A stretch of DNA of 64,000 nt from Caldilineales bacterium (GCA_019695115.1 JAIBAP010000009.1:1-64000); one strand, 5' to 3'; shown: positions 23,273 to 40,990, counted from the first letter of the stretch. The notes: generated by a model from the sequence alone, not told the origin. Program-made: numbers and translations.

Positions 23273-23287
23273 GCGCGCAAAACAGGA

Positions 23288-24082
23288 TCAGGCGCACAGG
23301 CTGCACGCGGGTCGCTGTCGAATCATGCGCTGCCCATCCTGGCCCTGGTCGAGATAGACGTCCTTGTAGTTCCAGGGACGGGGGCGAGCCATCAACAACG
23401 AGTCGATGGCATACAACGCCATACCGGCCACGATTTTGAGGATTTCGATCGAGGCGCCAGCGCAGCCATGGACGCGACGGTCTTCCCCGGCATCAGGAAA
23501 CAAGCACAAGAAGCAGGGGTCGCCAGGACGAGACGTCTGCACGAAGACATAGCCCTTAGCCGCGCGCTCATCCACTGCCAAAAAGACCACGGGCGTGCGC
23601 TGTTGCAGGTAGCGCCGGGCAACGGCGATGCGGGTCGCTTGATTGTCTACGCCAACGACAGCGACATGGCAACGGAGGTTCATCCCTCGTAACGCCGCCT
23701 CCTGGAAGGAGCAAGAATGGCCTTCGATCAGGGTTCGTCCGGTTGCCTGCCGGGCGAGATTGGCGGCCAAAGCCAACGCTTTGTTCTTGTCCAAATCCTC
23801 GGCGCCGAATTGTTGGCGGGCCAAATTGCTCAACTCCACGATGTCGTGATCGCACAACGTGAGACGGCCGATGCCCTTGCGCGCCAGGCCTTGACCGACC
23901 TCGCCGTTCAGTCCACCACAGCCGGCCAGAAGTACATGAGCGTTGCTGAGCGCGTTTTGGTCAGCGCCCGGAAGACGCTGGAAGCGATCGTAGACCGTCG
24001 CTTCGCCCAGATGGCGAGGCCGCAAAGGTTGGGTGAGATAGCGCACCGAATTGAACGATACGGTAGAGGTTTTTGTCTCCAT
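23288..24082 (-). CDS. E1-like (ThiF/MoeB superfamily) ubiquitin-like-protein activating enzyme
   Basis: 264 residues. The adenylation domain is clear: AGCGGLNGEV (residues 53-62, ATP loop), Asp78 in LCDHDIVELSNLARQQ with Asn87 and Arg89, Lys99/Lys101 in DLDKNKA, and Asp146 in VGVDNQATR. Two CxxC pairs (Cys190/193 and Cys260/263) should bind zinc. Cys207 in RRVHGCAGAS is a candidate catalytic cysteine. Such enzymes adenylate the C-terminal glycine of a ubiquitin-like protein. It is the last gene of the five-gene operon and its 5' end overlaps the JAMM gene by 122 bases. Confidence 0.85.
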   Translation of the reverse strand: METKTSTVSFNSVRYLTQPLRPRHLGEATVYDRFQRLPGADQNALSNAHVLLAGCGGLNGEVGQGLARKGIGRLTLCDHDIVELSNLARQQFGAEDLDKNKALALAANLARQATGRTLIEGHSCSFQEAALRGMNLRCHVAVVGVDNQATRIAVARRYLQQRTPVVFLAVDERAAKGYVFVQTSRPGDPCFLCLFPDAGEDRRVHGCAGASIEILKIVAGMALYAIDSLLMARPRPWNYKDVYLDQGQDGQRMIRQRPACSLCA

Positions 24083-24827
24083 CGACGGGTTTCACTCCTT
24101 TTCCTTGAACCTCGATGACAAACCGGCGATTGCGAGCAAAGAAGCGAACGTAGCCATCCTCGGAAAACACAGCCTGGATAGCGGGATAGCCTCCTTCTTC
24201 CAGGATTCGTTGCAGACGGTCGTCGGTGGCGGAGGGATGGGGCGGGCCAGCGAAGCGGTGGCTGTGGAAGATGGCATGAAGCGCCTGACCGTGTTCGTGC
24301 AGACAGACGGCGACGCGTGTGAAGTCTTGCATATCGAAGGATGCCTGCGCCGCCGATTGGCTTGCCAGCCGCACCTCGATCAGGTGTTCGAGGGTGCGGG
24401 CGCCATCATGGTTCAGGCCGCTGACCGCCAGCATCCATTCCGGCTCCTGGCTGCTGCCGGGCAGATGCTGCGTGAGGTAGCTATGCGCCTGGGCCAGGAT
24501 CAGGGAGCTGATCGAATAGGCGTGAACCGCTGCCTGGGGGCGGGGAGGGGCAACTCCGTCGCCGGCGGGCAAAGATGGCGGGTCGATCGCCCCCGCAATC
24601 TGGCCGGAGATGGCGACCGCCGCCTGGGACGCCTGAAGGAAGCGCTCCATCTCCTGGCGGCGTTGTTCGACGGCATCGGCATCGCCGCTCTTGAGGGCCT
24701 GGTTGAGCCAGGCCTGCTGTCGAGCCAGGCCCTGGGCGATGGCCAGATCGGATTTCGCCGCTTCTTCCTGCAGGCGCTGTCGCCAACGGACGAGTGGAGG
24801 CCGTGAGAAGCGCGAAAGAGTAGTCAT
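23961..24827 (-). CDS. JAB/JAMM-domain isopeptidase-like protein with N-terminal coiled coil
   Basis: 288 residues; the start is fixed by a strong AAGGAG site. Residues 10-70 are charged and helical, probably a coiled coil. The C-terminal domain carries the full JAMM zinc motif: Glu130, HSH at 188-190, then Ser199 and Asp202 with the expected spacing. JAMM proteins of this kind remove or process ubiquitin-like modifiers, or trim their precursors. Because the partner Ubl already ends in Gly, deconjugation is more likely than precursor processing. The reading frame extends 122 bases into the E1-like gene. Confidence 0.85.
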   Translation of the reverse strand: MTTLSRFSRPPLVRWRQRLQEEAAKSDLAIAQGLARQQAWLNQALKSGDADAVEQRRQEMERFLQASQAAVAISGQIAGAIDPPSLPAGDGVAPPRPQAAVHAYSISSLILAQAHSYLTQHLPGSSQEPEWMLAVSGLNHDGARTLEHLIEVRLASQSAAQASFDMQDFTRVAVCLHEHGQALHAIFHSHRFAGPPHPSATDDRLQRILEEGGYPAIQAVFSEDGYVRFFARNRRFVIEVQGKGVKPVDGDKNLYRIVQFGALSHPTFAASPSGRSDGLRSLPASSGR

Positions 24828-24878
24828 TTTCGATCTCCTTTGTGATCGGCAACCGGTCGGGCGACTCATCGCCCGTGT

Positions 24879-25466
24879 TCAAGCGCGCACGCCGAGGGCT
24901 TCGCCAAGCACTTTCTCCACCCCGGCGATGGCGTGATCGAGCGATGCAGGCATGGTGTGAAAGTGGACTTCATAGCGCCCATCCGTTCGGCCATTCTGGA
25001 AGCAAGGCCGATGGCCGGTGTTGCGGCCCAGCTCGACCAGGGGTGGGTTCCAGATGAAGGCGCGGAAACCGCCCGGATATGGTTCCTCGATCGCTCCTGA
25101 CCACTGGCGGCCACCGACGCGAAATGGGCCGCTGTAGCCGGCGCCGTTGCGCCGCCAGCCTTTTTCCTGCCAGTAAGGATCGCTGCGAGCGCGAACCAGC
25201 AAGGGAACGCCGCGGCGCATCAACTGGCCGCCGAAGACGTTTTGTCGATCGAGCGGGACGCGCTGCGCGGGGCCAAGGCGAACCGAGGGCAACGTGCGTT
25301 GCGACAGAGCGTTTCTTGGCGCTGTTGGGGCGACATGAGCGGGGCGTTGCCGATTTGCGGCCTTGTCTTGCTCACGCCTTTCTTCGTAGCCGGACATGGC
25401 CAGACATACCAGGCCGATCAGTACGGTGGCCCCGCAGAACCACGCTACGAATTGTTCCCAGTCCAT
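24879..25466 (-). CDS. Membrane-tethered protein with candidate E2-like domain
   Basis: 195 residues. One N-terminal transmembrane helix (about residues 7-26) is followed by a linker to residue ~80 and a domain of about 115 residues. That domain contains YSGPFRVGG, WSGAIEEPYPGGF, FIWNPP and HRPCF, then DGRYEVHFHT and a C-terminal amphipathic helix. The order (strands, a Pro-rich turn, a His-x-x-Cys, a terminal helix) and the position between Ubl and JAMM/E1 genes match the bacterial E2-like conjugating enzymes described by Iyer, Burroughs and Aravind. Cys155 would be the catalytic cysteine. I saw no standard HPN motif, so the E2 assignment is inference. Confidence 0.5.
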   Translation of the reverse strand: MDWEQFVAWFCGATVLIGLVCLAMSGYEERREQDKAANRQRPAHVAPTAPRNALSQRTLPSVRLGPAQRVPLDRQNVFGGQLMRRGVPLLVRARSDPYWQEKGWRRNGAGYSGPFRVGGRQWSGAIEEPYPGGFRAFIWNPPLVELGRNTGHRPCFQNGRTDGRYEVHFHTMPASLDHAIAGVEKVLGEALGVRA

Positions 25467-25531
25467 TGCTGACCTCGCGACAAAGAGTGTGGGGCTGGCG
25501 GCGTTTTACGCCGCCAGCAAGACCAGAGGTG

Positions 25532-25780
25532 CTAGCCGACGACCATGTTACTGGGCACAGCAAAGACCTTTTCGCCTTCCTGCGCCTGCTTGTAGACATC
25601 GTCCTGGCCGCCGAGGGAAACGAAACCGTCCCCACGCTTCAGTTGCAGTTGCCATTGGCCAGGATCCTTGCCAGCCGCGTTCAGCACTTCGGCGGCCTTC
25701 GCGCCCGGCTGGATGGTGGCGTTCCGGGCTTCGGCTTCGTCGCCGGCGCCGGGGATGATGAGATTGATGGTTTTGTCCAT
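25532..25780 (-). CDS. Small ubiquitin-like protein (beta-grasp) ending in glycine
   Basis: 82 residues; the start has a GGAGG site. The pattern TINLIIPG, then EARNATIQPGAKAAEVLN (helix), WQLQLKRGDGFVSLGG and EKVFAVPSNMVVG fits a compact beta-grasp fold like bacterial ubiquitin-like proteins. The chain ends exactly in Val-Val-Gly before the stop, so a C-terminal glycine is already exposed, as needed for adenylation by the E1-like enzyme. The genes for the E2-like, JAMM and E1-like proteins follow on the same strand. The fold is inferred from sequence pattern and neighbours. Confidence 0.75.
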   Translation of the reverse strand: MDKTINLIIPGAGDEAEARNATIQPGAKAAEVLNAAGKDPGQWQLQLKRGDGFVSLGGQDDVYKQAQEGEKVFAVPSNMVVG

Positions 25781-25848
25781 GGGAGCCTCCAAAGAGCCAG
25801 AAAGTGAGGGTGACGGGGAACGAGTGACAGAGATGCGGTGATGTACCA

Positions 25849-26283
25849 TCAGTTCTCGAAGATGCGGCGAATTGCGGCGAAGTCAGCCAGACCGTCGATG
25901 CGAGTGACCGAACTGCTATGGGGTGCTCGCACAACCAGGTCGCCCATGTCAATCCGAACGGCGATCACGCTCTGCCTGCAATCGACGACGGCGCTGGCCA
26001 GGTCGTGGCTACAAGAGTGGCGGAAGATGACGCCCTGCCTCACGACAATGCGCTGGCGCGTGACAATGACGACGAAGAATTGCCAGGCGATGTAGTCGTG
26101 GATGAACGTAGCGCCGGCCAGCAAGGCGACCAGATTGCTGGCGAGCTGGAGGACAACGGCATCCGGCGCAATCCACACATACAGAAGCAGCGAGGCGATG
26201 AGGAAGGCCACGAAGACAATGATGCAGACCAAGAAGCCCGGCAGCACTGCCAGCAGGTGGCGACGGGTTTCGACACGATTCAT
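25849..26283 (-). CDS. PH-domain (bPH2/DUF304-type) membrane protein
   Basis: 144 residues from an ATG with a GGAGG site. Two transmembrane helices (about residues 14-34 and 40-62) precede a soluble domain, FFVVIVTRQRIVVRQGVIFRHS...VDCRQSVIAVRIDMGDLVV, that matches the bacterial PH-like domain 2. It is the first gene of the minus-strand operon, 68 bases ahead of the Ubl gene. With the tethered E2-like protein it suggests that conjugation takes place at the membrane. Its role is unknown; it could be a substrate, anchor or regulator. Confidence 0.75.
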   Translation of the reverse strand: MNRVETRRHLLAVLPGFLVCIIVFVAFLIASLLLYVWIAPDAVVLQLASNLVALLAGATFIHDYIAWQFFVVIVTRQRIVVRQGVIFRHSCSHDLASAVVDCRQSVIAVRIDMGDLVVRAPHSSSVTRIDGLADFAAIRRIFEN

Positions 26284-26735
26284 TGTGGTGCCTCCTGGTG
26301 ATGTGAGTATCAGAAGACGTTCGACTACCTCCAAGAGCTATTATCGCGAAAACCTGAGATTCTGCCTGACAGCGATCATTCCGCACCCTATTAACCATCT
26401 CACAGGACGCTAACAATGTCGGCGCCGACGCAAGTAGCGTAGTAGGCAGGGCGAGAAGCAGTTGTTGCTCCCTTCAGACAGTGAGCAATCGTTAGTCATC
26501 TGTTAGGGAACTGTTAGACGATGTTCAAGCATTGATTTCGTCATCGTGCGACACTGCATGTACATGGTTTCCTCGCGCTCGATCCCTGGTCTATGGCCTC
26601 GAATCGAGATATACTTATTCTGCTGTCGAATGACCGAAACAATCCCGTTGAAATGCGCGCAGTGCGAGGGATGGATGCCATCTCCTTGATCTGATTTGCG
26701 CATCGACTCTCATGCCCAGCAGCTGAGACATAACC
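26284..26735. other. Divergent intergenic region between the Ubl operon and the ATPase/winged-helix gene
   Basis: 452 bases without a credible gene. It holds the three-heptamer direct repeat at 26489-26517 and an oppositely oriented GCTAACA at 26409-26415. On the minus strand TTGTTA, 16 bases, TTAATA is a weak promoter for the PH-domain gene; on the plus strand TATACT at 26610-26615 could be a -10 for the ATPase gene. Confidence 0.5.
26489..26517 (+). promoter_or_regulatory. Candidate operator: three heptamers at 11-bp spacing
   Basis: TCGTTAG at 26489, CTGTTAG at 26500 and CTGTTAG at 26511, each separated by four bases. Heptamers with 4-bp spacers, one helical turn apart, are the classic binding pattern of OmpR/PhoB/SARP-type winged-helix activators. 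The adjacent gene at 26736 encodes such a C-terminal domain. Confidence 0.6.
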
Positions 26736-28211
26736 ATGATCGAACTCAACTTCCCCGATGCGGTTCGTCACGAAAAGGACTTCTTCGGCCGTCGCAAAGA
26801 GCGCGGACGGATCGAGGGCGCGTTGCTTTCGGAATCGAGTCGCCTGGCGTTTGTCACCGGCGAACGAAGAATCGGCAAGACATCCTTCCAGAATGTCACG
26901 ACAAGTGTAGTAATCGCTCGCAAAATGGACAGAAAATACATAGCGATGGATATGCCCTCGCCTCCGGCGATCCGGTCGTTTGAAGACTATGCTCGCGAAC
27001 TGCTCGTGGGTCTGAGCAGTCTGGTAGGCAGAAGCCGCCACGAAACCGGGCTTTATGATGGCCAGGGCCGCTTTTCGGCCACCTCGGTGGGTGAGACCAT
27101 CGAGGCAACTCGGCGCGTCCTCACTGGCCTCACCAACGTGAACATCGTCGTGGTCATCGATGAATTCGACGACCACTTGCGCAGTTGCCGCGCATTGCAC
27201 GAAAGGGATGACATCCTGGGCTTCAACAAATACCTGGTGGAGAAGCGTCCGACTGAACCGAATGTCTCTATCGCACTCTACCCAAGCCTGACGCGCCTGC
27301 CTGAGAAAGACGAAGACCTTTTCGGTTCGCTCTTGATCTCCAAGGGCGAAGTTGCCGAACTGACGCCACTTTCTGATAGCGAAACCGAGGAGATGATCGG
27401 CGGGTTGCTCAAGGACGAGGCAGGGATGACCACGGAAGCGATGGAGCTTTTCTATCGTCTTTCCGGCGGGCATCCCTACGTTGCCAAGTTGCTACTCACC
27501 CACCTGTTGCCAGGCTACCCCCGACTGAAAGCGCACGTTCAAATCACACGTACGCTGGTGGAAGATGCGATCCAGCCGGCGGCATCTGATCTGAATCCGC
27601 GCACCGCCCTGGCAGATATTTGGAAAAAGCATTTCAACCGGGCAGAAAAGCAAATCATGCTGCTCCTGGCCGAACGTGATGCCGGCCTCACCAGCTCGGA
27701 ATCGCTGAGGCTATCTCCGGAACAACGCAAGGGCGTGAGAGTGCTGGCCCAACGCGGCTATTTGAACCGCGAGCGCGACGAGTCGTGCAACCTGCGCATC
27801 GAATTCTGGAGATATTGGCTACGCGAGTGGGAAGATTTCGAGATAGAACGCAAAGATCTCGATCTTGACAGCATAATTGAGCGCTTGTCCCCACCTTATA
27901 CGGAGTCCCAACCGGATATCGTCGTCGACCAACGTAAAGGCATTGTTTTCATAAAGGAACAGGCGGTTCATACGACGGCGCAACAATTCCGCGCTCTTGT
28001 CTGTCTTTCGCGTCGTTGCGGCGACTTGGTCTCGTATGACGAGTTGATCGAGGAAGTCTGGATAGAGGATGACGCCGACGGCGTTGCACTTGGCGCAGTG
28101 AACATGCTCATCAGCCGGTTGCGTGTGCTGTTGGAGGACAGCGATAAAACACTCCTCGTGACCATCAGAGAACGCGGCGTTATTTTGCACAAGGCACTGC
28201 TGAAGCTATGA
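26736..28211 (+). CDS. P-loop ATPase with C-terminal OmpR-type winged-helix domain
   Basis: 491 residues. The N-terminal AAA/STAND-like ATPase has Walker A GERRIGKTS (42-50) and Walker B IVVVIDEFDD (Asp142, Glu143), followed by sensor-type helices. The last ~95 residues are a Trans_reg_C winged helix (AQQFRALVCLSRRCGDLVSYDELIEEVW, then MLISRLRVLL) like OmpR, PhoB and SARPs. There is no receiver domain, so ATP binding rather than phosphorylation would control DNA binding. It is divergent from the Ubl operon, with an 11-bp-spaced heptamer array between them, and 79 bases ahead of the large ATPase gene. I infer it is the local regulator. Confidence 0.78.
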   Translation: MIELNFPDAVRHEKDFFGRRKERGRIEGALLSESSRLAFVTGERRIGKTSFQNVTTSVVIARKMDRKYIAMDMPSPPAIRSFEDYARELLVGLSSLVGRSRHETGLYDGQGRFSATSVGETIEATRRVLTGLTNVNIVVVIDEFDDHLRSCRALHERDDILGFNKYLVEKRPTEPNVSIALYPSLTRLPEKDEDLFGSLLISKGEVAELTPLSDSETEEMIGGLLKDEAGMTTEAMELFYRLSGGHPYVAKLLLTHLLPGYPRLKAHVQITRTLVEDAIQPAASDLNPRTALADIWKKHFNRAEKQIMLLLAERDAGLTSSESLRLSPEQRKGVRVLAQRGYLNRERDESCNLRIEFWRYWLREWEDFEIERKDLDLDSIIERLSPPYTESQPDIVVDQRKGIVFIKEQAVHTTAQQFRALVCLSRRCGDLVSYDELIEEVWIEDDADGVALGAVNMLISRLRVLLEDSDKTLLVTIRERGVILHKALLKL

Positions 28212-28290
28212 GACAATCCCCACACTGTTATGCACTTCATCGGCGTGGCTGAAATGCCAAATCAGACTTGGATTGATCGGTGTTGCACCC

Positions 28291-31200
28291 ATGGACCAAC
28301 TTGATTTTGCAGCTCTACAACGCATCCGCGAAGCAGTTGCACAGATCGATATGACAGACCTGGTGGGTGTTTGGGGCGCCGCCGCGAGCGAACAGTTGCT
28401 ATTCATCTACAACGCCGAACGGACGCCCGATGTGGCAGCGTTGCCGGGCCAGCCCATCACCCTGAAGGCGCTGGCAGATCACGACCCATCCCGGTTCGAC
28501 GGCCTGCTGGTGGGAATCCCTGCCATCGAGTTGGTGCGACCCAACCCCCTTACCAAAGGGCCTCGCTTCTACCCTTTGGAGCGATTGATGGCTGATTTGG
28601 GGCAACAATCCCTCCTGCATCGCAATCTATATCGGCTGGCTCAGACGCTCCTTGCTTGGGCCCCTGGATTGTCCGAAGATAGCGTCCGTCACAATCGGTT
28701 TCAGAGGAAGGCCCTGCAACTGGCGTTGCCATACCTGGTAGAGGAGCACGGCGCCGACGAGCTGGTCGCGATTGCACCGGGCAAGGCTCTCGAGGCATTC
28801 ATCGACGGCCAGCAGGGTTGCTGGCTACGCGCGGGCGATGATCTTCGTCTTCTGTCGACGTTAGGCCCCGAAGATTGGATTGTCGCCTTGGAGGAACTCG
28901 ACTGGCTGAGCGCGGCCATTACCCTGGAGAGCGGGCGCTTTGTTCCCCTTCGCCGGGCTTTTCTTCCGACCAGCCAGAACACAGTTCTGAAAAGGACGCG
29001 CGCGGCGCTGGCAAAGCGGTTCAGCACCCTCGCTGCCGCATCGTCCCAGGCCCATCTTGCGGCCTATCAGCTCATGGTAGAGTACTGGTTGGACGACGAG
29101 GATGCAGAAGATCTGGTCGCGATCTTCCCTCACATCGATTTCACCCGCTTTGCCGAAAGCGGCGACGCTTTGCGGGTCTATCGCTCGTTGAAGGGATTCG
29201 CCAACGACACGACAGCGGGACCCAATTGGGATTTCGCGGCGTTATCGAACACTACCCTGCCAGACGTCTACCAAAGCTATGGTTTTGCTCTCATTCCTTT
29301 GCACAGAATCCCTGGGCTGAGCATAAATCGAGCGCAAGCAGCTGATTTGGGGCCGCTCCTGCGGCAAGCCAACCATGACACCGCCCTTGCTCAGACGATG
29401 CTCATGCTCGCTCATGACATGGTGGAATCTCGAAGCGCCGAGACTATCGGGGCGCCGGCTGAGATCGTGTCGGATCTGGCCCAGCGCGCCTGGATTTTCA
29501 TCAGCCTGGGCGACCCCTGGCTCTGGCGACACGGGCGCTATGGGCAACTTCTCGACAGCGCCGCCGCCATCCTCAAAAACGCGCTGCTCTATCAAGCCAA
29601 GACGACTGACGAAGTCGAGCGCGACTACCATCTGGCCTTGATCGATTGGTATTGCTCCGGAGAGGGAGAAAACATCGAGGATCGACTCCGGCGCATGGGC
29701 GAGAAACTGCGCGCTTTTCAGCATAAGGCCCGCGAGTCGAGCCGTTCTACTCAGGCGCGTATCGAGACGGCGCAGAGGCTACTCGAGATCGAACGAGTAG
29801 TTCTCTATCCAGACGCCGGCTCCCAACTGGATCAGGGCAGTGCAGCCGGTACTCAGCCGGCTCTGACCCCTGACACACGCGGCTACTTGCGGAATCGGGC
29901 AGCGAGTTGGACCCACTCGATTCTATCCCCTTCTCCGGTTTTCCAACGACACTGGCGCGAACTGATGCACACACGCCAGAAGCGCCAGGACGAGCAGATG
30001 TTCGAACCGCATGTCGATACCCTGGAAGGCAAATTCCATGAGATCAAGGCCGCTTTGGAGGCTCTGCGTCGTCGCTTTTATGCTCCCCCCCAGGAACTGG
30101 CCATCTTGCGCTTCGTGGCCGAGCGCGAGATCAAGGAGGTGTCGCTGTACTTGGAGAAAGTCGCCAGGCCGAAACTGAGGATCGTGGCCCTCAATCCCTA
30201 CCTGGAACGAGATCAAGAGATTGCGCTGGAGTGCGAACTGACCAATCAGAGCCGATCCAAAGTTTCTGACGTGGAGCTTGTCCTGCTCAATCCTGGCGCT
30301 GACTTCGAACTACTCAGCGATCGTGCCTTTTCATTTGTGGAGTTATCTCCTAATGTGCCCCAGCGATTCACTTATCGCCTGCGGGTGCTCAAATCCGATG
30401 AGATCAGCTTCCATTTTCAGTATGGCTACGCCGGATTACAAGGCCATGAAGACATCGAGATTCGAGCGACTGTGCGCACGCCGGAGAACATTCCCTTTCG
30501 ACTTCTGCGGAATCCCTTCATCACCGGCGACATCATCACCGACCCTGAGCAGTTCTATGGCCGCGAAGCCGAAATGGAGCGGCTGTTGCGACATCTGGCC
30601 AGCAGCGGTCGCACCAACTTTCTATTGCAGGGGGCGCGACGCATGGGCAAGAGCTCCATGCTGGAGATGGTCGAGCAAGCGGTCAAACAACCCAAGCTGA
30701 GACGCCGATTCAATATCCCGGCCGACTGGGATGAATCTTTCGACCCCTACATCACCGTCAAACTCAGTTTCCAGGGCTTCAATCCCCAGGAAGATGCTTC
30801 TCATATCAGCAACTTCTTCCGCGAGCTGGTCGAGAGGACCACAAAGGTTTTGGCGCCCTCACGGTGTGAGCAAATTCTGAACGATTTTAGCGCTCAGTTG
30901 CAGACGAGCGATGCTCAACGCGCCGCTGAAAAGGCCCTCAACCACTTGTTGACGGAACAGCCACATAGGCGCGCACTCGTTCTGCTGGACGAGTATGACG
31001 AATTACTCAAACCCAAGATGGCTGATTTGGACGCGCCTCTGCGCTATGTCGTGCAGCATGTGCCGTCCCTGACGTGGATCATCGCCACCACGCGCCTGCT
31101 GGTCGAGCGCAGCAAATACTATGGTTCTCCCTGGTATAACGTCCTGAATCAAGTGCGTCTTGGCTGCTTATCACGAGAGGCTGCCAGAGATCTGATCATC

Positions 31201-31782
31201 GAGTCCAGCAAGCGCGTGGGTGTGGAATGGCGGGGCGACGCTATCGTTCACCTTCTGGACGAGACCGGACGTCATCCCTACCTCCTCCAGCTCTTTTGTT
31301 CGCAGGTGATCGATTATCTCAGCGCGAAGGGACAAAATTATGTCTATCCCGAATTGATCGCTGACTTGATCGACGAAATCATCACCGAGAGTACAACCCT
31401 CCATGTCTATCTGGAGCCGTCTTGGGGTGGGGATATATCCGGTGTTGGTCAACTGATCATGCTGATCTCAGAGTGGAATGAGACGCCTCTGACAAAAGAC
31501 AGACTGCGAGAGGAGGTGGAAAAATATCTTCATAAGCATTTTGGTCCGCAGGTGGATGCTACAGCGCTTGGCATCGAGCAAGAGCCACGTGTATGGTGGG
31601 AATTGGCGTGGGAAAACGGGCTAGCCGAGGTGGTTGAAATCCGCAACACCTTGCAACTCGATCCTGACTCGCGAACCTATGGTTTCACCGTGCCCATCTT
31701 CCGCCGGTGGCTACAACATAAGGATCATACCGAAGATATCTGGATGGCTGTGCGTCACAAGATTATGGCGGAGTTGCCCTGA
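28291..31782 (+). CDS. Large STAND-like P-loop ATPase with central beta-sandwich domain
   Basis: 1163 residues from the ATG at 28291 (an in-frame TTG lies at 28273). The first ~600 residues are helical and unrecognised. Residues ~625-735 look like an Ig-like beta-sandwich (LRIVALNPYLERDQEIALECELTN). The C-terminal ATPase begins at FYGREAEMERLLRHL with P-loop GARRMGKSS near residue 780 and Walker B ALVLLDEYDEL near 895, followed by a helical/winged-helix tail. STAND ATPases are signalling switches that oligomerise on binding a ligand. Its stop is only one base before the start of the membrane-complex operon, so it is almost certainly co-transcribed with it. Confidence 0.75.
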   Translation: MDQLDFAALQRIREAVAQIDMTDLVGVWGAAASEQLLFIYNAERTPDVAALPGQPITLKALADHDPSRFDGLLVGIPAIELVRPNPLTKGPRFYPLERLMADLGQQSLLHRNLYRLAQTLLAWAPGLSEDSVRHNRFQRKALQLALPYLVEEHGADELVAIAPGKALEAFIDGQQGCWLRAGDDLRLLSTLGPEDWIVALEELDWLSAAITLESGRFVPLRRAFLPTSQNTVLKRTRAALAKRFSTLAAASSQAHLAAYQLMVEYWLDDEDAEDLVAIFPHIDFTRFAESGDALRVYRSLKGFANDTTAGPNWDFAALSNTTLPDVYQSYGFALIPLHRIPGLSINRAQAADLGPLLRQANHDTALAQTMLMLAHDMVESRSAETIGAPAEIVSDLAQRAWIFISLGDPWLWRHGRYGQLLDSAAAILKNALLYQAKTTDEVERDYHLALIDWYCSGEGENIEDRLRRMGEKLRAFQHKARESSRSTQARIETAQRLLEIERVVLYPDAGSQLDQGSAAGTQPALTPDTRGYLRNRAASWTHSILSPSPVFQRHWRELMHTRQKRQDEQMFEPHVDTLEGKFHEIKAALEALRRRFYAPPQELAILRFVAEREIKEVSLYLEKVARPKLRIVALNPYLERDQEIALECELTNQSRSKVSDVELVLLNPGADFELLSDRAFSFVELSPNVPQRFTYRLRVLKSDEISFHFQYGYAGLQGHEDIEIRATVRTPENIPFRLLRNPFITGDIITDPEQFYGREAEMERLLRHLASSGRTNFLLQGARRMGKSSMLEMVEQAVKQPKLRRRFNIPADWDESFDPYITVKLSFQGFNPQEDASHISNFFRELVERTTKVLAPSRCEQILNDFSAQLQTSDAQRAAEKALNHLLTEQPHRRALVLLDEYDELLKPKMADLDAPLRYVVQHVPSLTWIIATTRLLVERSKYYGSPWYNVLNQVRLGCLSREAARDLIIESSKRVGVEWRGDAIVHLLDETGRHPYLLQLFCSQVIDYLSAKGQNYVYPELIADLIDEIITESTTLHVYLEPSWGGDISGVGQLIMLISEWNETPLTKDRLREEVEKYLHKHFGPQVDATALGIEQEPRVWWELAWENGLAEVVEIRNTLQLDPDSRTYGFTVPIFRRWLQHKDHTEDIWMAVRHKIMAELP

Positions 31783-31783
31783 A

Positions 31784-33952
31784 ATGGTTGCAACACATAG
31801 CCTTAGCGTCCTCGCCTTGCTCGTGCTCGCGCTCTGTCTGGGCGGCGCTTTTGCCGGCATCGTGGTCGGGCACTTACGCAGCCGTTTGGGCACGCGGCTG
31901 GCCCTCCTCTCTGCGCTGGCTGCAAGTATGGTCACTATCGTGAGCGCCCTGGCGTTCTGGCAGCAGCCTATGTCAGCGGGCCTGCCTATCGCCACCTTGG
32001 TGACAGGCGCACCCGGCGCCTTTCCGCCCATTGTCGTCGAACTCTTCATCGATCGCCTGGCCATCTTCTTTCTGCTTGTAACCAATCTGCTGGCCATTGC
32101 CGTTACGATCTATTCGTTGGCCTGGCTGGAAGGGGCATGGAAACCTCATCGCATCGCCGGAATCTACAATGTTTTCCTTCTAGCCGTCATCACGCTGCTG
32201 GTGGTCAACAGCGTCTACCTCTTTCTGCTCGCCCTCGAATCGGTGACTCTCAGTTTCGGTTATCTTGTCCTGTATCGACACAACCGCCTGGTCGAGAAAC
32301 CAACGGTAGAGATCGATGCCAGAGAAATGGTAGACGCCGGCCTCGCTTACAAAACCTATTTGATCTTCAGTCACACCGGCGCCATCCTTAGCATGGCGGC
32401 GCTGCTGGCATTGGCGCTCTTGGCCGGGAAAGACGGATTCGATTTCGACACCCTGCGCGCTTCTGGCTTCGAGCAGTCTTCGCAGATGGCGAGTCTGATC
32501 TTCCTGTTGGCTGTGGCTGGCTTCGGTATCAAAGGTGGTTTTGTGGGCGCTCACCCATGGGTGCCCATGGTGCACCCCTATTCGCCAACGACGACCCATG
32601 CCCTGACTCTCGGCTTTGTGATCAAAACCGTCTCTTTCTACATGTTGATCCGCGTCTGTTTCCAATTCCTGGCGCCGATTCAAATGTGGTGGGGCTGGCT
32701 ACTCTTGATCGTGGCCGGCGCCACTGGGTTGATCGGTGTGTTCTATGCCCTCTGCAGCCGCGACTTGAAGGTGGCCCTGGCCAACCATAGCGTCGAGAAC
32801 ATCGGCATCATGCTTGCCGGCATCGGCATTGCCCTGGTGATGGTAGCATCTGCGTTCCAAAGAGATGGCAAAACACCGGCTTTGGCCTTAGCTGTGGCGC
32901 AGGTGGGTCTTGTCGCCAGCTTCTACCACATGCTCAACCACGGCGTCTTCAAGGGATTGCTCTATCTCTGCACGGGCGCAATCGAACACCGCACCGGCAC
33001 GGTGAGTATGGAGCGTTTAGGAGGGCTCATCACCGCCATGCCGTGGACAGCCACAGCTTTCCTGGTCGGAGCCATTGCAATCAGTGGTTTCCCGCCCTTC
33101 AATGGTTTCATCAGTGAGTGGCTGACGCTACAAGCGTTACTGGCCGGCCTGGATTATAGTCCTGCCAATATCATTCCCCCCTTGCTGCCGCTGGCGATCG
33201 TGGCAACTTTGCTGGCGCTGGGCCTGGCCTTTGCCTTGACGGCCTTCGCTTTCGTGAAAATCGCCGGCGAGACCGTGCTCGGCGCGCCGCGCGATCCAAC
33301 CACCGCGGCCAGAGCCAGCCAAGGCGACGGATCCTGGCTCATGCGCGGTGTGGCGCTGTCGCTGGCCATTTGCTGTTTGATGCTGGGCATAGTGCCGGGC
33401 CTGATCATCCAGCCGCTTGCCCTCCTCGCCCAAGATCTGCTACCACCAGGCCAACAGGTCTTCGAGAAAGGATGGACGACCATCACGCTGCAAATGCCAC
33501 AGCCAAGAGACCATGTGATCGGGCTGAACCTGGGGCCGGTGATGTTGCTGGCCATCGGGCCGCTGGCGCTGGCCATCCTGCTGGCGAGACGCAACCGACG
33601 AGCATCCCGTACGAGTGTCTGGACTGGCGGCACAATCTATCAGCCCGAACGGATGCAGATCACAGGCGGCGCCTTCTCTTTTCTGGTCTGGAGCAGGCTC
33701 GGCCGTCGCCAGACGCCGGACGAGACATTCCAGTCAGTCCAGGAAAGCAACGTCCCTTGGCGAATCGTTTTGTCGGCCGGCTACTATATCCCCGATCATT
33801 TCCGGCGCTTCTTTGCCGCCGGGGTTGCAGCCCTGCTAGCCAACGCGGGTCGTTTGGGCGATCGCGTCCAGGGCGGCGATATTCGCTGGTATCTGGTTTA
33901 TCTCTTCCTTGCCTTTCTGACCATGCTTGCGCTTTCGGGCGCCAGCAGGTGA
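31784..33952 (+). CDS. Proton-antiporter-like membrane subunit, HyfB/NuoL-type
   Basis: 722 residues with about 16 transmembrane helices. The Proton_antipo_M core is evident (GIKGGFVGAHPWVPMVHPYSPT, LKVALANHSVENIGIML, FYHMLNHGVFKGLLYLCTGAI), with the conserved Lys and Glu of ion-translocating subunits. Closest to hydrogenase-4 component B. It is the first subunit of a six-gene energy-converting-hydrogenase-related (Ehr) complex. The start is one base after the STAND-like gene; the stop overlaps the next start in a TGATG arrangement, showing coupling. Confidence 0.88.
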   Translation: MVATHSLSVLALLVLALCLGGAFAGIVVGHLRSRLGTRLALLSALAASMVTIVSALAFWQQPMSAGLPIATLVTGAPGAFPPIVVELFIDRLAIFFLLVTNLLAIAVTIYSLAWLEGAWKPHRIAGIYNVFLLAVITLLVVNSVYLFLLALESVTLSFGYLVLYRHNRLVEKPTVEIDAREMVDAGLAYKTYLIFSHTGAILSMAALLALALLAGKDGFDFDTLRASGFEQSSQMASLIFLLAVAGFGIKGGFVGAHPWVPMVHPYSPTTTHALTLGFVIKTVSFYMLIRVCFQFLAPIQMWWGWLLLIVAGATGLIGVFYALCSRDLKVALANHSVENIGIMLAGIGIALVMVASAFQRDGKTPALALAVAQVGLVASFYHMLNHGVFKGLLYLCTGAIEHRTGTVSMERLGGLITAMPWTATAFLVGAIAISGFPPFNGFISEWLTLQALLAGLDYSPANIIPPLLPLAIVATLLALGLAFALTAFAFVKIAGETVLGAPRDPTTAARASQGDGSWLMRGVALSLAICCLMLGIVPGLIIQPLALLAQDLLPPGQQVFEKGWTTITLQMPQPRDHVIGLNLGPVMLLAIGPLALAILLARRNRRASRTSVWTGGTIYQPERMQITGGAFSFLVWSRLGRRQTPDETFQSVQESNVPWRIVLSAGYYIPDHFRRFFAAGVAALLANAGRLGDRVQGGDIRWYLVYLFLAFLTMLALSGASR

Positions 33953-34923
33953 TGGACATGACATTAGACAGCCTGCTGTTCGCCTCGTTGCAAGGGATCA
34001 TCCTGCTGGCCCTGGCGCCATTCACGGTTGGCGTGTTGTACTGGGTCAAAGCCCGTTTGCAACGACGGCAAGGCCCTTCGATCTGGCAGCCGTACCGTGA
34101 CTTGCGCAAATTGCTCCGCCAACGGCCGACAGCGCCGATCGGCAGCTCTTGGGTCTTCGAGGCGGCGCCGGTTGTAGCCTTCGCCTGTTATGGGACATTG
34201 GGCTTCTTGGCGCCGCTGTTTCTCTTGTCAAACGTCGAAGGCGCCCCGCGCACTGACGACCTCCTTCTCATCATCGCCCTGCTCGGCCTGGCCCGCTTGG
34301 CAGTGGGCTTGGGCGGCATGGCAGCCGGCGCACCTTTCGGCAATTTGGGCAGTGCGCGCGAGATGTTCCTCCACGTCCTGGCAGAACCAATACTGGTCTT
34401 GGTGACAATCACCCTTGTGCTAACCTGGCACACGACCAATCTCGCATTATTACTGGGTCGAGAATCGCAGTCTCTGGCCGCAGTCTACCGCAATCCCGCC
34501 CTGTTGCTCCTATTCCCGACGCTTGCTCTGACCATCGTCATCGAAGCTGGACGACTGCCGTTCGACAATCCTGGCGCCCATCTGGAACTGACTATGTTCG
34601 GCAAAGCCATCCACCTGGAATACGCCGGGGCACAACTGGCCTTGCTGGAATGGGCGGAATGGGCACGGTTGGCGTTTCTGTTCACGCTTCTGATCAATCT
34701 CCTGGCGCCCTGGTCACTGGCCACGACGCAGCAAAGTGGGTGGCTTATCGTTCTCGCTGCCGTTACTTATCCTGTCAAGCTATGCCTACTGGCCGGAGCT
34801 ATCGCAGTCTGGGAATCCGTGCAAATCAAGATTCGCCTCTGGGCCTTGATTCCTTCTGCTTTTGTGGCTTTGGCGATGGCGCTGCTTGCGGTCCTGCTTG
34901 TCGTCATTCAGCAACACATCTGA
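33952..34923 (+). CDS. HyfC/NuoH-like membrane subunit
   Basis: 323 residues, about 8 transmembrane helices. Signature features of the NuoH/HyfC family: RRQGPSIWQPYRDLRKLLR on the cytoplasmic side, and EAGRLPFDNPGAHLELTM, whose glutamates line the quinone/ion channel region. This subunit joins the peripheral arm to the membrane arm. The start overlaps the previous stop (TGATG). Confidence 0.9.
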   Translation: MDMTLDSLLFASLQGIILLALAPFTVGVLYWVKARLQRRQGPSIWQPYRDLRKLLRQRPTAPIGSSWVFEAAPVVAFACYGTLGFLAPLFLLSNVEGAPRTDDLLLIIALLGLARLAVGLGGMAAGAPFGNLGSAREMFLHVLAEPILVLVTITLVLTWHTTNLALLLGRESQSLAAVYRNPALLLLFPTLALTIVIEAGRLPFDNPGAHLELTMFGKAIHLEYAGAQLALLEWAEWARLAFLFTLLINLLAPWSLATTQQSGWLIVLAAVTYPVKLCLLAGAIAVWESVQIKIRLWALIPSAFVALAMALLAVLLVVIQQHI

Positions 34924-34933
34924 GAGAAGAACG

Positions 34934-35701
34934 ATGCAAGGCATCATCGACATCCTAGCCGTTGTCATGGCGGTGTGCGCGATAGGCATTGTCTCAGTAG
35001 GAGCCATCCGGCGTATGATCTGGTTCTATCAGGTGCAGTCGGTGATTCTAGCTTTTTTGACCGTGCTGGCTGGCTTGCCGCTGGGCCAATCGGATGGTAG
35101 AACGCTCACTGGCTTGATCTGGCGACTTGCTTTCGCTATCTCGATCCCAGGCTTTCTCGCTTACACCATCGAGCCACTCCTTGTTCAAGCCACCGTGCAG
35201 CCTGAAATGCATTGGGGAGCGCGCATTATCAGCATCTTGCGTATAAGCCGCAAGCACCGCTTCGAGACAACGCAGCGGCGGGAGGAGGCCTTGGTCGTAT
35301 GGCTGGAGCAGGGGCTATCCTCTACACGACAAGTTGCTTCTGCCATCTTCAGCCTGCTTTTGACAGCCATGGCCTCATGGGCAGCCCTCAAGCTGATCCC
35401 AAATGAGCAGAAACACATGGCGCCTTTAGCGATCTCCCTGGCCTTATTGATGCTTGGCATTCTTGCCATGATCAGTCGAGAGGATCTCATTTCACAGATA
35501 ATCGGTCTTTTGGTCATGGACCACGGTCTTTTCTTGGGAACAGTAGTTGTCTTGAGTCATTCCAATTTGATACCATTCTTTGTTTTTAGTCTCTTTCTAT
35601 ACATATTGATCACACTTATCATCATAATAGTGATATTGCCGGAATTGCATAACGAATCAGAATCAATAAAAGTCGAAGAACAGAGTGTTTTGAAGGGATA
35701 A
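34934..35701 (+). CDS. HyfE-like membrane subunit (NuoK-related)
   Basis: 255 residues with six or seven transmembrane helices. The N-terminal part (VGAIRRMIWFYQVQSVILAFL) and the later NuoK-like helices (MISREDLISQIIGLLVMDHGLFLG) match hydrogenase-4 component E. The cytoplasmic loop KHRFETTQRREEALVVWLEQG is longer than in typical NuoK. The ATG at 34934 was chosen at the start of the first helix. Confidence 0.8.
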   Translation: MQGIIDILAVVMAVCAIGIVSVGAIRRMIWFYQVQSVILAFLTVLAGLPLGQSDGRTLTGLIWRLAFAISIPGFLAYTIEPLLVQATVQPEMHWGARIISILRISRKHRFETTQRREEALVVWLEQGLSSTRQVASAIFSLLLTAMASWAALKLIPNEQKHMAPLAISLALLMLGILAMISREDLISQIIGLLVMDHGLFLGTVVVLSHSNLIPFFVFSLFLYILITLIIIIVILPELHNESESIKVEEQSVLKG

Positions 35702-35708
35702 ATATGCC

Positions 35709-37397
35709 ATGTTACAAGAACAAACATTACAGCGCTTACTGGTGATCATGATATTAGTGCCGCCGCTGATTGCCATGCTCGTGGCGCTGGTATTCAGGTT
35801 TGGCATCAAGACAAGAATTGATCGTCGCGTCGAAGAGGGTTTTCTGACCTGGAGTACACGTACTCTTTCTGGAATCTCACTATTGTCTTCGTTCTTTTTG
35901 GGATGGTACGCAAATACGGAAATAAGTCTTCATTTCAGCGTGTCTATCATTGATATTTACATTGATGCACTCAGTATCTATTTTGTTCTCTTAGTCAATC
36001 TGGTTGCCTTTTTCGCCTCCTGGTATGTGGCGCAGTTTCTCGCGCAAGAAGGCAAATACGCCTCCCACTGGAAGCATCACAACCCCGCCACCTTCCACCT
36101 CCTCTTCAATGCCTTCCACCTCACGATGCTGGTTGTGCCGGTGGTGGACAACCTGGTAATACTTTGGATGGCAGTCGAGCTAACCACCGTGGCCTCGGTG
36201 CTCCTCGTCCGTTACCGGGAACAGCGGCGTATGGTCGAGGCTGCCTGGAAATACATCATGATCACATCGGCCGGTATCGTCTTTGCGCTTTTCGGCACGA
36301 TCATGTTGGCCGATGCTATACAACCCCAGACATGCAGCGCGATAGCCCAAACACAGGCCGAAATCGCCTGCAACGCCCTGTCGCCATCTCTGCTTATGCG
36401 GTGGTCCAACCTTGCCCAGCCAGATATCGCCAAAACCTTGAACGAGCAACTCGTTCGCCTTGCTTTCCTACTCGCTCTGGTTGGGTACGGCGCCAAAGCC
36501 GGGTTGGCGCCGCTGCATACCTGGCTGCCTGATAGCCATGGCGAGGCGCCGCCGCCGGTAAGCGCCCTTCTCTCAGGTGTACTCCTCAAATCGGGCCTCT
36601 ATGTCATTCTGCGGTTCTATACCATTACCAACCTCGCCCTTGCCAAACCCGACTCTACGAGAAGCTTCACATCAGGCATGTTGCTCCTGTTTGGCCTCTT
36701 CTCTCTGCTTCTGGCCACGCCTTTCATTCTCAAACAACCTAGTCGCTTCAAGCGCGTCCTGGCTTACCACAGCCTTGAACACATGGGAATCATCTTGTTC
36801 GGGCTGGGCATCGGCACCGGCGCGGCTTTGTTCGGCGCGCTTCTGCATGCGCTCAACCATGCGCTCACCAAGGCGTTCATGTTCCTTGGCTTTGCCACGA
36901 TTCGGCGCCAATATGAAGACCAGGCAGAAGACCCTGATCTCCAAGATACAGACATCACCGGGGTGCTCCATGGTATGCCGATCAATGGCGCCATGTTGAT
37001 GGCGGGTGGCCTGGGGCTTGTTGGCTCCCCTCCTTTCAGCATATTCCTTAGCACCTTCATCATTCTCTGGGCCGCCCTTGCCAGCATCTTACCCGGCGTC
37101 CATGCCGAACGTGGGCCGCTGCAACCTATCATCTACTTGATTGCCACCGTGCTTTTCCTGCTGGCTCTTGCTCTCATCTTCGGTGGACTGGTCGGACATT
37201 TGGGCCGCCTGCTCTTGGGGCGCCCTCGCTTCAGCGGACTTTCGGATCCTCGCTTCGGGGAGTATGCCCCTCTCATCATCCTGCTGGCGATCATCTTTCT
37301 CTTTGGTGTCTGGATTCCAACTACGCCCGTGAATTTCCCCGCCCTGCTGGATCAGAGCGTCCACATTCTGCTGGCCGGGGCGCCAGGTTCGCCATGA
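35709..37397 (+). CDS. HyfF-like proton-antiporter subunit
   Basis: 562 residues with about 14 transmembrane helices. The antiporter core contains LVILWMAVELTTVASVLLV, GYGAKAGLAPLHTWLPDSHGEAP, FKRVLAYHSLEHMGIIL and LLHALNHALTKAFMFLG, with the canonical Lys and Glu of NuoM/HyfF. This is the second antiporter-like subunit, after the HyfB-like one. The stop overlaps the next start by four bases (ATGA). Confidence 0.9.
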   Translation: MLQEQTLQRLLVIMILVPPLIAMLVALVFRFGIKTRIDRRVEEGFLTWSTRTLSGISLLSSFFLGWYANTEISLHFSVSIIDIYIDALSIYFVLLVNLVAFFASWYVAQFLAQEGKYASHWKHHNPATFHLLFNAFHLTMLVVPVVDNLVILWMAVELTTVASVLLVRYREQRRMVEAAWKYIMITSAGIVFALFGTIMLADAIQPQTCSAIAQTQAEIACNALSPSLLMRWSNLAQPDIAKTLNEQLVRLAFLLALVGYGAKAGLAPLHTWLPDSHGEAPPPVSALLSGVLLKSGLYVILRFYTITNLALAKPDSTRSFTSGMLLLFGLFSLLLATPFILKQPSRFKRVLAYHSLEHMGIILFGLGIGTGAALFGALLHALNHALTKAFMFLGFATIRRQYEDQAEDPDLQDTDITGVLHGMPINGAMLMAGGLGLVGSPPFSIFLSTFIILWAALASILPGVHAERGPLQPIIYLIATVLFLLALALIFGGLVGHLGRLLLGRPRFSGLSDPRFGEYAPLIILLAIIFLFGVWIPTTPVNFPALLDQSVHILLAGAPGSP

Positions 37398-39139
37398 CAA
37401 CCCACACCGCCGTACGTGAGCTTTGCCGGCAGCACGGCCATTTGCTGCATTTGACAGCACCCAACCAACTATTCGTGCGGGTGGACGATGAAGGCCGGCT
37501 TCGCTCTCTGGCGACCCGGCTGAGCGAACAGGGTTTCTATCTCGTCACGTTGGTCGCCACCGACGAGCGCGAGCTTATCGACGGTTCCTTCAAGCTTACC
37601 TATCTGTTCTCTCCTCCCAACGAAGACATCTTCCTTTTCGTCGAACACCCTCTGCGGCCAGAGCGAAGCGAACCGCCGTGCTATGCCAGCCTCTTGTCCT
37701 GGTTTCCTTCTGTCGACCCCTTCGAGCGGGAGATGGCCGATATGATGGGATTGTTTCCGGGTGAAAACGGTCCCGGTCGACTAGGCGATCACGCGCCTCG
37801 CATCCACAACGGTGATTGGCTGCACCCCGAATGCTATCCGCCGGCGTTGACGCCTCTCCGCCGCGATCGCAAAACGAACGAGATCCTGACGGACATCCAG
37901 CAGTACGGCCGGCGCCCTGAGTTGGATCACCTCCCGGAGCCGAAGGGTGGAGAATGGTTACTGCCCGTTGGTCCCGTCCATGCCTCCATCATCGCACCGG
38001 GCCGCTTCCTGTTCCGCTTGGCCGGCGAAGTGGTGGAGGAAGTGACGGTCCGACTGGGCTATACCCACAAAGGGATCGAGTGGATTTTTCAGACCGACTA
38101 CAAGTTGGCTGAAGGCTGGCAATTGGCCGAATACGTGGCAGGCGATTCAGCTTTCGCCCACTCGCTGGCCTATTGCCTGGCAGCCGAGGCCCTGGCCGAT
38201 AGTCGACCTCCTCGCCAGGCATCATGGCTACGGGCATTGTTCCTGGAATTGGAGCGCATCGCCAACCACATCGGCGACTGCGCTGCGCTTGCCCATGATG
38301 TAGCTTCTGATCTGGCTGCAACAGAACTCGCGGCACTGCGCGAGGAGATTCTGTGTCTACACGAGCGAATGACGGGGCATCGTCTTTTGCGCGGCATCAA
38401 TCGCCCTGGCGGCGTCATCCTTCCATCGACGATCGATGTCGAGGATTGCCGACGCACTGTACAGGACGCGGTAGAATCCTTTGCGGCTGTGGCAACGAGC
38501 TTGGAGCAAATGCCTGCTTTCCGCGAGCGCCTCCAATGGCAAGGCATCCTCACCCATCGACAAGCATCAAGCCTTGGCGTCACCGGCCTCGTCGCCCGAG
38601 CGTCAGGCGTGATGCGCGATGTGCGACGGCAACATCCTGATAGCGTCTATCAAGCCCCGGCCATTCGCGATCTCCTCATTCCTCCGCCGCAAAACCCCAT
38701 TGCCGAGCGCGAAGCGACGGCAGGAGATGCCTTTGCGCGTTTTCTTGTCCGCGTGCACGAGGTCGCGAGTTCGGGGCGTATCATCAACGAAATCTTGGGG
38801 CAGGATGAGATACGCAATCACGATCGTGAGAACGTGACACCCACGGCTTTCCCTCCCTCTCACAACTACGAGTTCGGGCTGGGCTGTGTGGAGGGTTGGC
38901 GTGGGGACATTATCTACTGGCTGATGCAGGATCGCTTTGGGCGTATCTTCCGCTGCAAGGTCCGCGACCCATCCTACCTGAACTGGCCCAGTTTGAAAGC
39001 AGCGATCGAGCCACACGATTTGGATAAGGAGTATATTGACAAACATCACCCGCCTGAGAGACGCGCCCAAACGCTGCTCGCTGACTTTCCGATCATCAAC
39101 AAATCCTTCAACCTTTCCTACTCAGGCAACGATCTTTGA
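37394..39139 (+). CDS. Hydrogenase-like large subunit (HyfG/NuoCD-type) lacking all nickel ligands
   Basis: 581 residues. The N-terminal ~150 residues are NuoC-like (SFKLTYLF, DPFEREMADMMGLF); the rest is the NuoD/HyfG fold (RLGYTHKGIEWIF, LFLELERIANHIGD). In real group 4 NiFe hydrogenases the first ligand motif is RxCGxC; here the aligned segment is YVAGDS with Ala249 and Ser252. The C-terminal DPCxSC is replaced by NLSYSGND, with Ser575 and Gly578. All four metal cysteines are therefore absent. This defines an Ehr-type (energy-converting hydrogenase related) subunit and not a hydrogenase. The subunit should still mediate contact with the membrane arm. Confidence 0.88.
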   Translation: MTTHTAVRELCRQHGHLLHLTAPNQLFVRVDDEGRLRSLATRLSEQGFYLVTLVATDERELIDGSFKLTYLFSPPNEDIFLFVEHPLRPERSEPPCYASLLSWFPSVDPFEREMADMMGLFPGENGPGRLGDHAPRIHNGDWLHPECYPPALTPLRRDRKTNEILTDIQQYGRRPELDHLPEPKGGEWLLPVGPVHASIIAPGRFLFRLAGEVVEEVTVRLGYTHKGIEWIFQTDYKLAEGWQLAEYVAGDSAFAHSLAYCLAAEALADSRPPRQASWLRALFLELERIANHIGDCAALAHDVASDLAATELAALREEILCLHERMTGHRLLRGINRPGGVILPSTIDVEDCRRTVQDAVESFAAVATSLEQMPAFRERLQWQGILTHRQASSLGVTGLVARASGVMRDVRRQHPDSVYQAPAIRDLLIPPPQNPIAEREATAGDAFARFLVRVHEVASSGRIINEILGQDEIRNHDRENVTPTAFPPSHNYEFGLGCVEGWRGDIIYWLMQDRFGRIFRCKVRDPSYLNWPSLKAAIEPHDLDKEYIDKHHPPERRAQTLLADFPIINKSFNLSYSGNDL

Positions 39140-39150
39140 ACCAAACGCCT

Positions 39151-39648
39151 ATGTCCGCCTCATCCCTTGGCTTCTGGGGTGTGCTGGGACGTCTGCGACA
39201 CTTGTTTTCGAGTCGCGACTGGCTTACCACACCCGACCATCGCCCCCGGCCACGGGCTTCAGTCTTCATCCGGCATGTGGACGCTGGCTCCTGCAACGAT
39301 GGCAATGTCGAACTTGCCGCTCTATGGAATCCGCAATACGACGCCGAGCGCTATGGTCTCAAGCTTGTCGCCTCGCCCCGCCATGCCGATGTGCTTGTTG
39401 TCACGGGACCGCTTGTTCGCAGCATGGAGCAAGCCCTCCTGTCGGCGCTACGGGCTATGCCAGAACCGCGCTGCGTCGTCACCATCGGCGATGACTGCGA
39501 TGAGCCACATGCCATCTACCGCAATTCCTATGCCATAGTGGGTTTGCCTGAGGAGATACTTCAAGCCCGCGGCGACGATCACATCCCCGGAAATCCTCCC
39601 ACACCCCAGGCGATCCTGGAACATTTGCTCACCATGCCCACCGTGTGA
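39151..39648 (+). CDS. HyfI/NuoB-like small subunit with a degenerate iron-sulfur site
   Basis: 165 residues from the ATG at 39151 (a TTG at 39136 is the alternative). The fold matches NuoB/HyfI (DVLVVTGPL, YAIVG, IPGNPPTPQAILEHL). The four cysteines that bind the N2-type cluster are mostly missing: SCNGC becomes SCNDGN, keeping Cys48 and losing the second; PGCPP becomes PGNPP (Asn148); the GDC motif is GDDC, with Cys116 shifted by one residue. A normal [4Fe-4S] cluster is unlikely. It is the last gene of the complex; no NuoI/HyfH-type ferredoxin subunit was found in the operon. Confidence 0.8.
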   Translation: MSASSLGFWGVLGRLRHLFSSRDWLTTPDHRPRPRASVFIRHVDAGSCNDGNVELAALWNPQYDAERYGLKLVASPRHADVLVVTGPLVRSMEQALLSALRAMPEPRCVVTIGDDCDEPHAIYRNSYAIVGLPEEILQARGDDHIPGNPPTPQAILEHLLTMPTV

Positions 39649-39777
39649 GGGGTGAACCGCGCGTGCAGCATCGCCTCGAAAAGCAAACTTCGAGCCAGGA
39701 TGCAAGGTCGGGTATACTGCCAATCTCTGATGCAGATGCAGGCATCCATCTCTCTCGAAAGCTTCACAGGCTGACCC

Positions 39778-40836: not shown

Positions 40837-40855
40837 TGTGATCCGCGAAGGACGC

Positions 40856-40892
40856 GAAGGGGCGCGAAGAGTGTGACTTTTCGCGCCCCTTC
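40856..40892 (+). terminator. Hairpin after the RNA ligase gene
   Basis: A perfect 13-bp stem (GAAGGGGCGCGAA paired with TTCGCGCCCCTTC) with an 11-base loop, 20 bases after the RNA ligase stop. There is no downstream T-run, so it may be a weak terminator or an mRNA-stabilising structure. Its left arm lies inside a GCGAAGG-type repeat. Confidence 0.5.
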
Positions 40893-40914
40893 ACGCTAAT
40901 AGCGAACTACTTTT

Positions 40915-40963: not shown

Positions 40964-40990
40964 ACATTTCCCTCTCCCACGGAGACCCCC

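Follow-up and report, generated by a model that had tools for sequence, protein, structure and literature searches.

A tethered E2-like protein in a four-gene ubiquitin-like cassette

The DNA analysed here, a stretch of 64,000 nucleotides from a Caldilineales bacterium (GCA_019695115.1, JAIBAP010000009.1:1-64000; hereafter the window), carries on its minus strand, from position 26283 to 23288, five genes encoding, in order, a bPH2-like membrane protein, a ubiquitin-like modifier (Ubl), an E2-like protein with an N-terminal transmembrane (TM) helix, a JAMM-type isopeptidase and an E1-like activating enzyme. The last four probably constitute a cassette for reversible Ubl conjugation, in which a membrane-anchored E2 would act on membrane-proximal targets. 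An earlier note had described five genes on one strand in this order and over this span, which the open reading frame (ORF) coordinates and ribosome-binding sites confirmed. It had also proposed a complete Ubl-E2-JAMM-E1 set, which is supported by the fold of the Ubl, a moderate E2/UEV/RWD fold match, the E1 match and the JAMM motif. A Shine-Dalgarno-like sequence lies 5′ of all five ORFs, and the successive intergenic gaps of 68, 65 and 51 nt are followed by a 122-nt overlap between the JAMM and E1 genes.

A second cassette was found in G041, a genome of a different family within the same class, where contig 25 encodes Ubl, E2, JAMM and E1, with gene order and strand as in the window. Identity between the two cassettes is 51% for the Ubl, 41-47% for E2, 55% for JAMM and 71% for E1, and the codon-position divergence is concentrated at third positions, a real-gene pattern. 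The conservation of the four genes in G041, together with this third-position bias, indicates that they are real genes. In both genomes the start of the E1 gene lies inside the end of the JAMM gene, in the +1 frame and over about 120 nt. Third-position divergence between window and G041 drops inside the overlap (0.31/0.34 versus 0.47/0.56 outside), so that both frames look constrained as coding sequence. No bPH2 gene is present in the G041 cassette. The conserved unit, as given by two sequences, is thus one of four genes without bPH2, and the tethered E2 is a trait common to both cassettes. Three points on which the earlier reading could have fallen were checked, and none went against it: the 82-residue protein models as a beta-grasp, the 195-residue protein resembles the E2/RWD fold to a moderate degree, and their homologues co-occur with E1 and JAMM genes. 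Directly upstream of the Ubl cassette in G041 and on the same strand (L024, 4827-5800, minus strand), we observed genes for a weakly YbjN-like protein and a 116-residue protein, possible partners there.

The modifier is modelled with a ubiquitin fold

In a confident AlphaFold2 model, built from two sequences, the 82-residue protein folds as ubiquitin: a single beta-grasp domain with the strand order beta-beta-alpha-beta-beta-beta and a predicted local distance difference test score (pLDDT) of 88.3. The best Foldseek match was a ubiquitin variant (E 4.4e-4) and the third was the Caldiarchaeum ubiquitin, while comparison with ubiquitin-fold proteins by VIA gave a Z of 10.8 over 74 residues. Structure prediction therefore bore out the earlier description of this protein as beta-grasp-like.

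The chain terminates in N-M-V-V-G, glycine being the last residue without any precursor tail, and a C-terminal glycine closes both modifiers (VVG in the window, DVG in G041). As the terminal glycine is already exposed, the modifier should require no maturation cleavage, which would leave deconjugation as the task of the JAMM enzyme. The Ubl and E2 proteins had no match in the Pfam, PADLOC, NCBIfam and PHROGs profile libraries, and a search of solved-structure sequences with the Ubl, E2 and JAMM profiles returned nothing meaningful.

The E2-like protein and its membrane helix

The E2-like protein is composed of a TM helix at about residues 6-24, a linker and an E2/UEV/RWD-type domain at about residues 88-192. 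The top 19-residue hydropathy of the N-terminal helix is 2.3 and 2.6 in the two cassettes. Charges flanking the helix suggest, by the positive-inside rule, that the catalytic domain is cytoplasmic, a prediction that is clearer in G041.

The AlphaFold2 model of this protein is moderate, with a pLDDT of 68 overall and 82-89 in the main sheet. In a second-look comparison with VIA, whose own note warns that a Z below 8 can reflect a common arrangement, the top matches were the RWD/ELF domain of FANCL (Z 7.1), the UEV domain of TSG101 (6.8) and a bacterial CdnG-E2 (6.2), followed by the E2 domain of Cap2 (5.8), Ubc9 (5.3) and UFC1 (5.1). We consider that the modelled domain likely has an E2/UEV/RWD fold, an assignment strengthened by the operon context. 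The transmembrane-anchored E2-like domain proposed earlier is thus supported, since the helix recurs in the G041 cassette, with a fold match that stays moderate.

Regarding the active site, the candidate catalytic motif in the window is H152-R-P-C155, and the motif at the E2 cysteine reads H-R-P-C and H-H-P-C in the two cassettes. Cys155, His152, His168, His170 and His178 are conserved in both homologues. In the model, Cys155 follows strand 133-139 and a Pro-Pro pair and precedes helix 176-190; it should sit where an E2 cysteine is expected, past the last meander strand and ahead of the last helix.

The JAMM and E1 enzymes

The JAMM protein harbors the motif H188-x-H190-x8-S199-x2-D202, in which x8 exceeds the common x7 by one residue, with the same spacing in G041. 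His188, His190, Ser199 and Asp202 are conserved between the two cassettes, as are Glu147/Glu151 upstream. All the zinc residues announced by the earlier note are therefore present, at this slightly longer spacing. By sequence, the first 100 residues form a helical-looking N-terminal extension.

The E1 consists of a single ThiF/MoeB-type adenylation domain (Pfam ThiF, E 5.7e-28, above the curated cut-off), its closest solved structures being MoeB and ThiF, and PADLOC E1-E2 models match it through their E1 part. Its CxxC pairs, C190/C193 and C260/C263, align with the zinc cysteines of MoeB, in agreement, like the ThiF match, with the earlier assignment of an E1-like enzyme with adenylation residues and two CxxC pairs. 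To these we add Cys207, close to the active-site cysteine region of MoeB and ThiF, as a candidate thioester cysteine.

Such a short, single-domain ThiF/MoeB-type E1 with a MoeB-type zinc site, next to a Ubl that ends in glycine without a tail like ThiS and MoaD, could also belong to a sulfur-carrier or small-molecule pathway (ThiS/MoaD/CysO-like). Adenylation by the E1 would then prepare the Ubl for thiocarboxylation, and JAMM would cleave a product from it, without protein conjugation. We judge this unlikely: in both cassettes a protein with an E2-like fold and a conserved cysteine is encoded between Ubl and JAMM, and no rhodanese, sulfurtransferase or cofactor-synthesis gene was recognised adjoining the cassette.

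The bPH2-like protein

Hydropathy of the bPH2-like protein indicates two TM helices, at about residues 18-36 and 43-61, followed by a PH-like domain (residues 67-140) predicted to be cytoplasmic. Its gene lies on the same strand as the Ubl gene, 68 nt upstream of it and with its own ribosome-binding site, as would be expected of an integral fifth component serving conjugation as a receptor, an anchor or a substrate. We find this role doubtful, given the absence of the gene from the G041 cassette, which leaves it linked to one of the two known Ubl cassettes, and the unrelated genes that adjoin its homologues in three neighbourhoods examined elsewhere in the class. Such homologues occur in 11 of 150 class genomes, the window's own included. 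The closest (40% identity, genome G113) stands beside sensory and regulatory genes, two others lie between housekeeping genes, and no E1 gene was found near bPH2 homologues in these three neighbourhoods. The earlier inclusion of bPH2 as an integral part is thus not supported, and the protein is a putative accessory, which may be an anchor or a target that arrived separately.

Proposed mechanism

For activities, membrane topology, targets and purpose, we infer the following scheme. A single N-terminal helix would keep the E2 on the cytoplasmic side of the membrane. The MoeB/ThiF-like E1, probably a homodimer, would use ATP to adenylate the C-terminal glycine of the Ubl, and would probably carry the Ubl on Cys207, from where it would move to Cys155 of the tethered E2. 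Lacking an E3 partner in the cassette, the E2 itself would join the Ubl to an amine on a membrane-near protein or, with lower probability, on a lipid; removal would fall to the JAMM enzyme. The tether would confine the targets to the membrane surface, and the purpose may be defence or membrane regulation.

Several points weigh against this scheme. First, the E2 fold match is moderate, with a best Z of 7.1, and plain Foldseek gave at best an E of 0.44. Secondly, type III secretion chaperones come close behind in the fold comparison, at Z 6.1 and below. Thirdly, no Prok-Ub or Prok-E2 Pfam family was matched. Finally, two cassettes only are known, so that "conserved" means two sequences.

The membrane helix of E2 in both cassettes and the adjoining bPH2-type protein in the window would also suit an ATG8-like lipid conjugation, in which the tethered E2 would load the Ubl onto an amino-lipid, for example phosphatidylethanolamine, and JAMM would delipidate it. 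The H-R-P-C and H-H-P-C motifs recall, as a lead only, the HPC motif of ATG3 and ATG10. On the other side, bPH2 is not conserved and, to our knowledge, JAMM enzymes are not delipidases; no ATG3 rows appeared among the fold-comparison matches of the E2, an absence that decides nothing by itself. We regard this reading as very improbable. The broader proposal of a membrane-dedicated bacterial system, whose integral-membrane E2 would join a single-domain Ubl to membrane proteins or amino-lipids as a counterpart of ATG8-style conjugation or of the E2s tethered to the endoplasmic reticulum (ER), is one that we put forward tentatively, with less than even confidence.

Comparison with known systems

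The closest layout is that of the type 6d operons described by Iyer, Burroughs and Aravind in 2006, which encode a standalone Ubl with a C-terminal glycine, an E2 with a cysteine and a downstream histidine, a JAB protein with an N-terminal extension, and an E1 (PMC1779556). The cassette likewise has separate Ubl, E2, JAB and E1 genes, a Ubl ending in glycine, an E2 with a cysteine and conserved downstream histidine, and an N-terminally extended JAB. It differs in that its E2 has a membrane helix, the helical partner protein of 6d is missing, and the JAMM extension looks helical rather than alpha+beta. Moreover, neither cassette E2 matches Prok-E2_D or any other Prok-E2 model, whereas a 6d/PRTRC-like E2 used as positive control matches Prok-E2_D (3.4e-5). 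This control comes from a Clostridiales contig (L030, 2003-3677, plus strand) with a PRTRC/6d-like trio of a Prok-E2_D-type E2, a small Ubl candidate and an E1. Aligning the window E2 and Ubl with their L030 counterparts by hhalign gave no match.

In Bil, BilA is a two-domain, ISG15-like protein, BilD combines inactive and active adenylation domains (IAD and AAD) with a Cys domain, and BilB displays a CEHH motif consisting of Cys, Glu at +6, His at +8 and His at +13 (PMC11354881). The cassette shares with Bil the four genes for Ubl, E2, JAB and E1 and the logic of reversible protein tagging. In contrast, its Ubl is an 82-residue single domain, its E1 has 264 residues and a single ThiF domain, and its E2 is membrane-anchored. 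From Cys155, Glu lies at +11 and His at +13, +15 and +23, which is not CEHH, and this Glu is replaced by Arg in G041. By the features tested, the cassette is not Bil.

With the Cap2/Cap3 proteins of the cyclic-oligonucleotide-based antiphage signalling system (CBASS), the cassette shares E1 homology, a JAB partner and the moderate E2-like fold match to Cap2 and CdnG-E2. Its E1 and E2 are separate proteins, however, a dedicated Ubl is present, and no CD-NTase was found among its neighbouring genes. Bub operons, bacterial ubiquitination-like operons for Ubl conjugation cited in PMC13373217, are being studied separately.

Distribution and genomic setting

The look of the genes and their relatives suggests a bacterium of the Chloroflexota. 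Within the class, the cassette is rare and sporadic. The E1 profile was positive in two of 396 class genomes and in no further member of the order. The JAMM and E2 profiles, run on samples of 400 across the phylum, recovered the window genome (6.0 Mb, 135 contigs) alone, G041 evidently lying outside the draw, and no third cassette was found in the phylum and order searches. Scans of genome contigs with the JAMM and E1 profiles returned only two loci, both distant: L029, a CBASS Cap2 locus, and the PRTRC-like L030. Viral contigs gave no match to E2, JAMM or Ubl, plasmids none to JAMM and weak ones only to E2 and E1, and phages yielded distant E1 homologues only.

The cassette lies within a variable block (Table 1). 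In G002, a genome of the same genus, the counterpart of the cassette's left-hand neighbour (21908-23272) has the counterpart of the window gene at 40991 as its next gene, no more than about 140 bp away. Because these flanking genes are adjacent in G002, the 23.27-40.98 kb segment represents a gain in the window genome or a loss in G002. G+C content at third codon positions (GC3) is lower across most of the block than in its flanks. No recognisable integrase and no tRNA gene turned up. Besides the cassette, it carries a STAND/winged-helix gene, an AAA gene, hydrogenase-4-like genes and an RNA ligase.

Table 1. Features of the window, with coordinates counted from its first nucleotide
Feature	Position	Strand	Basis or remark
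bPH2-like membrane protein, 144 aa	25849..26283	-	Pfam bPH_2 E 0.0014 (below curated cut-off), hydropathy
Ubiquitin-like modifier (Ubl), 82 aa	25532..25780	-	AlphaFold2, Foldseek, VIA, G041 homologue
E2-like protein, 195 aa, N-terminal TM helix	24879..25466	-	AlphaFold2, VIA second look, hydropathy, G041 homologue
JAMM/MPN-type isopeptidase, 288 aa	23961..24827	-	Pfam Prok-JAB E 0.0011 (below curated cut-off), G041 homologue
E1-like activating enzyme, 264 aa	23288..24082	-	Pfam ThiF E 5.7e-28, MoeB/ThiF alignment, G041 homologue
Dual-coding overlap, JAMM 3′ end / E1 5′ end, 122 nt, +1 frame	23961..24082	-	Third-position divergence, G041 overlap
Variable block containing the cassette, ~17.7 kb	23273..40979		Missing in same-genus genome G002; GC3
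HigBA-like toxin-antitoxin pair, 96 and 95 aa	20375..20965	+	Sequence appearance
STAND-type ATPase with OmpR-type winged helix	26736..28211	+	Divergently transcribed
Large AAA_16 protein	28291..31782	+	
Hydrogenase-4/complex-I-like set	31679..39648	+	HyfB, HyfC-like ORF, HyfE, HyfF, fused NuoC/D-like large subunit, NuoB-like
DRB0094-type RNA ligase	39778..40836	+	TIGR02306, E 2.3e-57; right end of variable block
Short tandem repeat (ACGCAACACGCAACAC...)	40900..40970		Just within right border of block

The STAND-type ATPase and the large AAA_16 protein may represent a regulator or a separate conflict gene; no homologue of the latter was found in the two same-genus genomes or in G041. In the hydrogenase-4/complex-I-like set, the NuoC/D-like large subunit apparently lacks the NiFe-binding cysteine motifs (LGYTHKG and DPSYLNW stand in their place), and the complex may therefore convert energy without hydrogenase activity. 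The empty site of G002 carries a short repeat tract different from that at the right border of the block.

Given its sporadic presence, a defence role for the cassette is plausible. In a Bil-like anti-phage function, compatible with membrane-tethered conjugation since it concerns purpose, envelope proteins of phage or host would be tagged during infection. The patchy occurrence in the class, the position within a block that a same-genus genome lacks, the adjoining divergent STAND/winged-helix gene, and the defence activity of the toolkit relatives Bil and Cap2 (PMC11354881, PMC10097602) all speak for this function. However, in a PADLOC scan of five neighbour genes the STAND gene alone matched, marginally (E 0.00094), the remainder of the block is mostly metabolic, with its hydrogenase-4-like genes, and the neighbours examined around the G041 cassette were not recognisable defence genes. 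On balance, we see an anti-phage purpose as possible, falling somewhat short of probable.

Significance

Membrane-anchored E2 enzymes occur in eukaryotes, the ER-resident E2s being an example. In the bacterial Ubl-operon literature, which we covered in part, no E2 with a membrane helix was found described, and priority is accordingly uncertain. If our reading is true, this compact four-gene cassette with its tethered E2 would offer a tractable system for asking whether bacteria tag membrane targets, and whether topology-directed tagging is older than eukaryotes or evolved independently of them.

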